Source of the DNA: Patescibacteria group bacterium
GTDB taxonomy: Bacteria > Patescibacteriota > Gracilibacteria > UM-FILTER-43-11
DNA length: 64,000 bases
Direction of reading: 5' to 3'
NCBI GenBank assembly: GCA_018817125.1
Contig: JAHIUN010000015.1
Coordinates: 1-64,000, forward strand
Under the pieces are notes generated by a model. That model was not told the origin of the DNA and made no database searches. It saw nothing but the letters and a program-made list of their open reading frames with translations. The first letter of the stretch is position 1. Every line of letters begins with the position of its first letter. Positions 9,370 to 11,568 of the stretch are shown in pieces. The translations under genes were made by a program, and so were the position numbers.

Positions 9370-10215
9370 CTACTCCTCAACCATCACCGCTTTGTACTTC
9401 TCCAGCATTCGTCTTAGCGATTTTTCTAAGGGGGGCATGTGAACGCCTAGTTTTTCACGCTTATCCGTATTCATCACACAATTGGCGCGACGCTGACAAA
9501 GTGTGTCCTGCTCCCTTTTCCCCATAATCTTAATCTCAAATTTCGGGTCGACGATCTCTTTATACATTTCCATGATGGATTTATGATCCATGGCACCGAT
9601 GTTGGTCATGTTGAAGATGCCGGTTTCTTTTCGCTTCATCAGTTCAATGGCGGCGGGAATGAAATCTTCAATAATCGTGCAGGAATTCTGGATATTAATC
9701 ATTTTCGGATACTTCAGCAGTTTATTGATCAGGTTTTTTGGGTGCGGTTTGCCGGTAATGGGGATGCGCACTCTCAACTGAAGCACGTTTTTAAATTCTT
9801 TCAGGGCTTTTTCGGAATACACGCGGGATCGGCTGTAAAGTGAGCCGAAATAATTAGGTTCGTCGTCTTCGGTGTAGCCTCCTTTTTTACCACCGTCATA
9901 CACACAACCGCTGGCCATCTGCACCATGTAGGTGCCGAATTCTTCAGCAACGGTCGCGATATTAATACTGCCGCCCACATTCACGCTCATCGTTTCGCCG
10001 GGGTGATCTTCGCACCAGTCCACATTCGGGTAACCGGTAATCCCGGTCGCGTTGATGATGACATCGGGTTTGGTTTCGTACACGGCTTTTTCCACTTCTG
10101 TATGGTTGCGGATCTCGATGCGGGGCGTGAAGACTTTAAAGCCTTCTTTCATGAGGGTACATTTAAAATGAGACCCGATAAAGCCGGTGGCGCCAAGGAG
10201 TAAAACCTTTTTCAT
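9370..10215 (-). CDS. Nucleotide-sugar epimerase/reductase (UER1/NRS-ER-like)
   Basis: A 281-residue extended short-chain dehydrogenase. GATGFIGS (8-15) is the NAD(P) loop. The body, especially LRVRIPITGKPHPKNLINKLLKYPKMINI and GIFNMTNIGAMDHKSIMEMYK, resembles what I recall of the eukaryotic rhamnose enzyme UER1/NRS-ER, which makes NDP-rhamnose from the 4-keto-6-deoxy sugar, more than bacterial RmlD. The expected catalytic YxxxK reads YSRSR: Y127 is kept but position 131 is Arg. Activity may therefore be altered. It converges on the 8279 gene with 2 bp between stops. Confidence 0.85.
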   Translation of the reverse strand: MKKVLLLGATGFIGSHFKCTLMKEGFKVFTPRIEIRNHTEVEKAVYETKPDVIINATGITGYPNVDWCEDHPGETMSVNVGGSINIATVAEEFGTYMVQMASGCVYDGGKKGGYTEDDEPNYFGSLYSRSRVYSEKALKEFKNVLQLRVRIPITGKPHPKNLINKLLKYPKMINIQNSCTIIEDFIPAAIELMKRKETGIFNMTNIGAMDHKSIMEMYKEIVDPKFEIKIMGKREQDTLCQRRANCVMNTDKREKLGVHMPPLEKSLRRMLEKYKAVMVEE

Positions 10216-10590: not shown

Positions 10591-10803
10591 ATGCACCACA
10601 AACATGTATTCCAATTCATGAAGCACATGGCGGTCAATCTGATACTGGCCGGCATTCTTTCGATTCTTGTCGGCATTCTGATTTTTGTTTATCCGACATT
10701 TTTGGCTATTCTGGTCAGCGCGCTTCTGATCGTCATCGGTCTGCTTTGTTTAAAACTGGCTTTTAAAATCAACAAGTATTCCAAGGTCGATATCGATATT
10801 TAA
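10591..10803 (+). CDS. Small two-helix membrane protein
   Basis: A 70-residue protein with two predicted membrane helices (VNLILAGILSILVGILIFVYP and LAILVSALLIVIGLLCLKLAF) and a basic, His-containing N-terminus. The hairpin resembles one repeat of HdeD/DUF308-type proteins, but it is too short to assign. It probably shares a transcript with the 10280 gene. Its stop abuts the 3' end of the candidate RNA on the other strand. Confidence 0.6.
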   Translation: MHHKHVFQFMKHMAVNLILAGILSILVGILIFVYPTFLAILVSALLIVIGLLCLKLAFKINKYSKVDIDI

Positions 10804-10985
10804 AGAGACCCCCCAACCTGACCGGCGTGGTCTGATCGGGGGGTTGGTACGCACAGGAGAGGAAGTCATTGGGCTTCTGTTGGGGTTGGGACCCCGTTAA
10901 CGGAACCCTGAGGGATACACCCGAACCTCCTTTCGGATCCATAGTTGATGCCCTCTTGGGGCTTGCTTGGGACGATTTACGTACA
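10800..10985 (-). ncRNA. Candidate structured RNA of unknown class
   Basis: A promoter on the minus strand leads into ~185 nt with local hairpins: GCCC/GGGC, CCGAA/TTCGG enclosing AGGAGG, CCG/CGG and GGGG/CCCC. A 7-bp long-range pairing (GTACGTA near the 5' end with TGCGTAC near the 3' end) would close them into one domain. It ends in a long stem at 10844-10808 with G-U pairs that form only in minus-strand RNA, followed by CTCTTT. A 57-codon reading frame exists but runs through this stem into the neighbouring gene, so I favour RNA. It does not match RNase P, tmRNA or SRP RNA motifs I know. Confidence 0.5.
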
Positions 10986-10991
10986 TTGTCT

Positions 10992-11020
10992 ATTTTAGTA
11001 TATTTTATTAAATTTGTCAA
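10992..11020 (-). promoter_or_regulatory. Promoter of the candidate RNA
   Basis: TTGACA (11020-11015) and TAAAAT (10997-10992), 17 bp apart, on the minus strand. The match to sigma-70-type consensus is close. Confidence 0.75.
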
Positions 11021-11043
11021 GTATTAATTATACTTAAAAAACC

Positions 11044-11055
11044 GTGGGTGTTCTG
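11044..11055 (-). repeat. Duplicate of the tRNA-Lys 3' end
   Basis: CAGAACACCCAC on the minus strand is identical to the 3' end of tRNA-Lys (11506-11495). The two copies bracket a broken GIY-YIG gene, the arrangement left by site-specific insertion at a tRNA 3' end. Confidence 0.6.
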
Positions 11056-11073
11056 AAGTTATTCTTGGGTAGA

Positions 11074-11333
11074 TCAAAACTTTGTCGGATGACCATATTT
11101 GATAAGATTCTCCTTTTTTATTTTTGTCCATCCTTTGATCTGTTTTTCTCTTTTTATTGCCTCATTCCTAGCATTGAACTCTTCGAAATAAACAATCTTA
11201 ATTGGTCGTCTTGTACGAGTGTGTTCAGCTCCTTCACCTTTATTATGCTTTCTCTTGCCAGAATATTATTGCAGTGACCAGCGTATAAAGACTGATCTGC
11301 ACATCGTGCAAGATATGCAAAATATTTTTTCAT
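11074..11333 (-). pseudogene. Frameshifted GIY-YIG endonuclease-like gene
   Basis: From ATG 11333 one frame reads MKKYFAYLARCADQSLYAGHC, a GIY-YIG start resembling the intact gene at 50549-50794. After about 25 codons the similarity moves to another frame: HNKGEGAEHTRTRRPIKIVY, then FEEFNARNEAIKREKQIKGW and a C-terminus ending KYGHPTKF with TGA at 11074. The span of 260 bases is one short of 87 codons, which fits a single-base loss. It is probably inactive, or a base-calling error. Confidence 0.75.
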
Positions 11334-11492
11334 AAACTATTGGTTCGGTTGGATACAAAATATAATCAATTTAATTCTGCCCTTCGACTGCACTGTGCTC
11401 TGCTCCGTTACGCTCAGGGCATTCGATTCTTTTCTCTAACATGGCCCGCCATGAGTGAAGCGGAGTAGTGAAAGCTACGAAGCGGAATCGAA
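11334..11492. other. Intergenic stretch left of tRNA-Lys
   Basis: No gene seen. It holds an ATGGC/GCCAT hairpin around 11442-11453 and flanking CGATTC/GAATCG words that could form a larger imperfect stem. Confidence 0.4.
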
Positions 11493-11568
11493 TGGTGGGT
11501 GTTCTGGGGCTCGAACCCAGGACCAATAGCTTAAAAGGCTACTGCTCTACCAACTGAGCTAAACACCC
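11493..11568 (-). tRNA. tRNA-Lys (TTT)
   Basis: Cloverleaf on the minus strand: acceptor GGGTGTT/AACACCC, D arm GCTCAGTTGGTAGAGC, anticodon loop CTTTTAA with anticodon TTT, T arm with GGTTCGAGCCCC, discriminator A and encoded CCA. Its 3' end is duplicated at 11044-11055. Confidence 0.95.

Follow-up and report, generated by a model that had tools for sequence, protein, structure and literature searches.

What does the strong minus-strand promoter downstream of a tRNA-Lys gene transcribe, given the few and poor reading frames around it? The locus lies in a stretch of 64,000 nucleotides (the window, contig C5 of a 17-contig, 1.03 Mb genome). Its source organism is a member of the Candidate Phyla Radiation (CPR), since its only congener in the sampled set is Candidatus Peregrinibacteria bacterium Zod_Metabat.1128. 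The first-pass annotation had proposed a promoter-driven structured RNA, and this overall reading was upheld, as both promoter and fold are conserved in the sister species, where the larger reading frames are lost. We regard the locus as a genuine structured small RNA gene on the minus strand (10985-10800), with a probability of roughly 0.8.

The probable transcription unit and its sister-species counterpart

The unit and its surroundings comprise the following features:

11493-11568, minus strand: tRNA-Lys(UUU), upstream of the RNA gene, which it adjoins directly in the sister species
11018-11034, no strand: palindrome AAGTAT-N5-ATACTT, overlapping the -35 box; sole exact copy in the genome
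10992-11020, minus strand: sigma-70-type promoter TTGACA-N17-TAAAAT of the RNA, from a promoter scan and sister-species identity
10800-10985, minus strand: the small RNA, its ends estimated from the promoter and the terminal stem

The near-consensus promoter that the annotation had placed here was borne out: read from 11020 to 10992, it matches the consensus at 11 of 12 positions and is the best promoter within 9.0-13.2 kb, while exact copies of TTGACA-N17-TA[TA]AAT number only ~21 across the 1.03 Mb genome. The RNA predicted to start from it spans ~186 nt, from about 10985 to 10800. The palindrome over the -35 box, whose core (AGTAT-N5-ATACT) is also present at the sister-species locus, may be an operator.

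A blastn search yielded one homologue (locus L003; JAFGCR010000044.1, Candidatus Peregrinibacteria bacterium Zod_Metabat.1128), from the only other sampled species of the genus. The two RNAs are ~80% identical; one conserved block runs to 18 nt and another, the longest invariant one, to 22 nt, the latter lying at the 5' end of the RNA. The promoter regions are identical at 47/48 positions, with a binomial P of about 8e-7 assuming 70% neutral identity; in the neighbouring gene (186 aa), by comparison, 57/187 third codon positions differ between the species (~30%).

In the sister species tRNA-Lys is immediately followed by the RNA gene; in the window the two are separated by a degenerate stretch (11045-11490) that the sister species lacks. 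This stretch contains a 59-aa minus-strand frame without a Pfam match, which we take to be a GIY-YIG-like fragment, as well as an apparent decayed tRNA-Lys 3' half, and is probably the remains of an insertion at the tRNA-Lys gene. On the other side of the sister RNA, an extra 190-aa minus-strand gene (L003:817-1389) separates it from the gene for an 81-aa membrane protein, and a sequence resembling the end of this membrane-protein gene is apparently repeated beside the RNA.

Searched at the DNA level, 18 genomes of the order yielded the sister species as the only true homologue, two further short matches (L004 and L005) being dismissed as chance. A covariance model (R1), whose first-look filter could overlook strongly diverged copies, returned only the two known copies from 353 genomes of the class and no further ones from 380 genomes drawn from the phylum; with laxer filters across the order it again gave only these two, as did a pattern search of the order. 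The RNA is absent from the syntenic tRNA-Lys neighbourhoods of sister genera. The pattern hit 17 viral contigs, none of which the covariance model confirmed, phages and plasmids gave only AT-rich promoter scraps, and a pattern search of the GTDB species collection found only the sister species. As far as can be seen, the RNA is restricted to one genus of Ca. Peregrinibacteria.

Fold of the RNA and its conservation

The fold is described using the following elements:

10978-10984, minus strand: 5' strand of the closing helix P1, GUACGUA, in the minimum-energy folds of both species
10855-10866, minus strand: pyrimidine tract ACUUCCUCUCCU, predicted partner of AGGAGG in the full-length fold; poorly kept in the sister species
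10847-10853, minus strand: 3' strand of P1, UGCGUAC, in the minimum-energy folds of both species
10808-10844, minus strand: long terminal stem-loop, intrinsic-terminator-like with a weak U-tract, in the folds of both species

The minus-strand RNA folds at -70.7 kcal/mol (z -3.37; 0/200 shuffles equally good), compared to a z of -0.90 for the plus strand of the same stretch. The sister RNA, with a folding energy of -78.2 kcal/mol (z -4.65), independently forms the same layout of five helices and a terminator-like stem: the closing helix P1, P2 with an inner GCCC/GGGC hairpin, P3 with the loop UGUAU, P4 topped by P5, and the terminal stem. The several-hairpin structure suggested from the window is thus matched by strand preference and by recurrence in the relative, and the long-range 7-bp helix GUACGUA/UGCGUAC appears in the minimum-energy folds of both species.

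In the terminal stem, 10844-10829 pairs with 10823-10808. The annotation's remark that its G-U pairs work only in minus-strand RNA was correct, as the plus strand would give C-A mismatches, and the relative's stem likewise carries two U-G pairs. The stem is strong in both species; its U-tract is poor (UCUCUUU), and a simple terminator scan passed it over.

One structural claim of the annotation did not survive. AGGAGG had been placed in a hairpin loop, but the full-length fold pairs it with ACUUCCUCUCCU (10866-10855). A hairpin CCGA-AAGGAGGU-UCGG is feasible in the window RNA, chiefly when the transcript is truncated, as in a nascent RNA; in the relative the stem around AGGAGG differs (ACCU-AAGG-AGGU). 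The idea that the Shine-Dalgarno (SD) element opens in nascent RNA, which holds for the window, fails in the relative and was dropped.

The consensus folding energy of the two sequences is lower than that of column-shuffled alignments (z -3.2; 1/500), also without the terminator (z -2.6; 8/500). A set of 600 randomly mutated versions of either copy, given as many substitutions and indels as separate the two species, contained 0 to 1 that equalled the real relative in stability or closeness of fold at full length; once the terminator was left out, 4 to 5 of the 600 were as fold-close and 6 to 39 as stable. This mutant test is blind to the difference between structure constraint and sequence constraint. 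When either single-sequence fold was mapped onto the other species through a structure-blind alignment, the result did not exceed the chance expectation (P about 0.1 to 0.4), the reason being that P4 and P5 are thrown out of register by indels in the 3' half. A structure-guided comparison, using the two folds and the alignment, revealed matched changes in P3 (GGG/CCC to GAGAG/CUCUC) and in upper P4 (GUU/AAC to UGU/ACA). On the covariation check that the annotation had called for, these changes are suggestive only, since two sequences were all that was found.

The Shine-Dalgarno element and the seven-codon frame

The larger frames nearby, of 83 aa on the minus strand and 52 aa on the plus strand, had been judged too poor to be the product, and neither has a counterpart in the relative; several indels between the two loci are not multiples of three, and the 83-aa frame also has no Pfam match. 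Taken together, these results demonstrate or strongly support a conserved promoter of the RNA's own, a conserved fold and the lack of a larger protein frame. These are the features of a small RNA gene: its own promoter, a stable conserved minus-strand structure and no conserved protein-length frame. Within the RNA lie two smaller elements:

10925-10933, minus strand: AAAGGAGGU, a 9-nt complement of the 16S rRNA tail, which in the same genome is ...GGAUUACCUCCUUU
10897-10920, minus strand: seven-codon frame GUG UAU CCC UCA GGG UUC CGU UAA, which includes the P3 loop and the P4 5' strand

The 3' end of this genome's 16S rRNA reads GGAUUACCUCCUUU, with the anti-SD intact. The segment AAGGAGGU is invariant in the sister species and is followed four bases later by GUG in both; its pairing with the 16S tail extends over 9 nt in the window and, in the relative, over 8 nt that wobble pairing may lengthen. 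The frame of the relative (GUG UAU CUC UCA GGG UUC CUG UAA) has the same length, start and stop, and the predicted peptides, initiated as fMet, are VYPSGFR in the window and VYLSGFL in the relative. The three base changes in the frame affect two of the seven codons, both non-synonymously, and some of them fit the helices; no synonymous preference was seen, in two species and very little data. Joint conservation of SD, start and stop was reproduced in 0/20,000 column shuffles, for a pattern that had been noticed before this test.

The suggestion that the SD and the GTG frame encode a leader peptide stood in part: AAAGGAGG, the GUG and the stop codon are present and conserved as a unit. A cis leader is nevertheless improbable, as the RNA ends in a terminator-like stem of its own and has a different downstream region in each species.

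Across the genome, SD use by gene leaders is near chance level, strong matches being slightly over-represented: upstream of ~690 genes, 13 have matches of at least 6 nt and 8 of at least 7 nt, versus 9 and 0 in shuffled leaders. A strong and conserved SD within the RNA is therefore unusual. The predicted fold of the complete RNA has most of this SD base-paired.

Elsewhere in the genome, genes with an SD of at least 6 nt lean towards signal-peptide and lipoprotein genes (9/19 vs 192/816; Fisher P 0.03), a weak trend given the crude start calls. Contig C7 carries, at 86600-89260 on the minus strand, two tandem near-identical units with a promoter like that of the small RNA at 26/30 bases; each has a leader of at least about 450 nt with a leader frame, MTGTKLCLQTNNCFLKGE, and strong SDs, followed by different secreted-protein genes. 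The arrangement suggests that an expression cassette, conserved leader included, has been duplicated. On contig C6 (about 1046-1105), the precursor directly after the 16S 3' end is CUCCUUUAAGGAG, whose palindromic form could hide the anti-SD as long as the 16S rRNA is unprocessed.

Alternative explanations and the possible role of the RNA

Is the RNA a known one in diverged form? A scan against Rfam 15, at gathering and permissive thresholds, gave no match on the minus strand, and the RNA at 10985-10800 matches neither 6S RNA (RF00013) nor SRP RNA and lacks the tRNA-like domain and tag frame of tmRNA. The annotation's view that it is of no recognised class thus agrees with the Rfam scan and with the rest of the genome, where 6S RNA (C11:23058-23212; 6S was also found in the relative) and tmRNA lie on another contig, C11, and SRP RNA is undetected. 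Neither a real match to Ffh (TIGR00959) nor a bacterial small SRP RNA (RF00169) over cut-off was present in this genome and 17 relatives of its order, with controls detected, and since Ffh is undetected in the whole order, no SRP RNA is expected. SRP protein and RNA appear to have been lost together in this order; that SRP subunits are missing in many CPR bacteria has already been reported (PMC8080830). A diverged housekeeping RNA (6S, SRP RNA, tmRNA or RNase P) would fit a size near that of 6S and the genome's missing SRP RNA, but with 6S and tmRNA found elsewhere, SRP RNA not expected and the permissive scan empty, it is hardly credible; for RNase P RNA, the size of the RNA and the Rfam scan argue otherwise. 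A CRISPR/tracrRNA idea was also rejected, the window being without any array. Nor does chance, a fossil promoter beside a functionless GC-rich spacer, account well for the locus: it would suit an RNA seen in two species with a poor U-tract, yet the 47/48 identity of the promoter, the conserved 22- and 18-nt blocks and the conserved fold make it very improbable. A cis-acting leader (an attenuator or riboswitch with a leader peptide) of a downstream gene would explain why an SD and a short frame precede a terminator, and the relative's 190-aa gene does start ~77 nt past the terminator on the same strand. In the window, however, two opposing genes separate the RNA from the next gene on its strand, which begins at 10215, and the terminal stem folds separately, with no evident antiterminator; since the downstream gene is not conserved, we consider such a leader improbable.

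The remaining alternatives accept the predicted transcript and differ in what it does. It might be a short mRNA, with the seven-residue peptide as its product and the folds only stabilising the message. The strong SD, the four-base gap to GUG and the stop are all kept, and the frame is free of indels, versus five or six in the remaining RNA; but the start is GUG, two of the seven residues change, and the frame occupies only 24 of ~186 nt, with the longest invariant block outside it, so that we judge this unlikely. The main rival is a conventional small RNA that acts in trans by base pairing, in which AGGAGG or the C-rich segments pair with mRNAs and the SD resemblance and mini-frame are incidental. 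Such RNAs typically have a size, promoter, terminator and lineage restriction of this kind, and leaders with an SD, which in this genome weakly lean towards signal-peptide genes, are potential pairing partners of the C/U-rich 3' half. Against it, the C/U-rich tract is poorly conserved, and GUG and stop are kept along with the SD. We see it as a serious possibility, short of even odds.

Ribosome engagement as the working principle of the RNA is a tentative proposal. The RNA itself is very probably a standalone unit, transcribed from its own conserved sigma-70 promoter and folding, on the minus strand only, into the closing helix P1, hairpins P2 to P5 and the terminal stem. Its AAGGAGGU segment would pair with the 16S 3' tail four bases before the GUG and the seven-codon frame, and 30S subunits would probably load there, either to translate the short peptide, as on a dual-function RNA, or to stay held. 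As the full-length fold is predicted to mask the SD site in part, we speculate that access to it might be controlled by folding, by a ligand or by pairing with a target. A more specific version, in which the RNA is a CPR-specific, high-affinity SD decoy with a token seven-codon frame that holds or meters free 30S subunits and so selectively affects a few SD-dependent mRNAs, largely for secreted proteins, while the bacterium's remaining genes begin without an SD, is a long shot.

Among known systems, the RNA resembles lineage-specific intergenic bacterial small RNAs, a class with a promoter and intrinsic terminator of their own, in being an autonomous ~186-nt structured unit of narrow range with no conserved larger frame; it departs from the usual ones in its CPR host, in the unusual strength of its conserved SD, set in a genome poor in such sites, and in its weak terminator U-tract. 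Dual-function small RNAs such as SgrS or RNAIII carry a short translated frame. The RNA is like them in holding a short frame and SD within a structured RNA, with SD, start and stop conserved in the two species; it is unlike them in that its frame has only seven codons and putative translation, and it has no sequence relation to them. It shares its size and (here predicted) standalone expression with 6S RNA, but its fold is multi-branched, unlike the rod with a central bubble that 6S forms.

Regulatory RNAs of the CPR are poorly known, and a search of the papers available for Peregrinibacteria and non-coding RNA found none. A conserved, perfect complement of the 16S tail, in a genome whose SD use is near chance, gives a concrete handle on how translation initiation is controlled in SD-poor, SRP-less bacteria.
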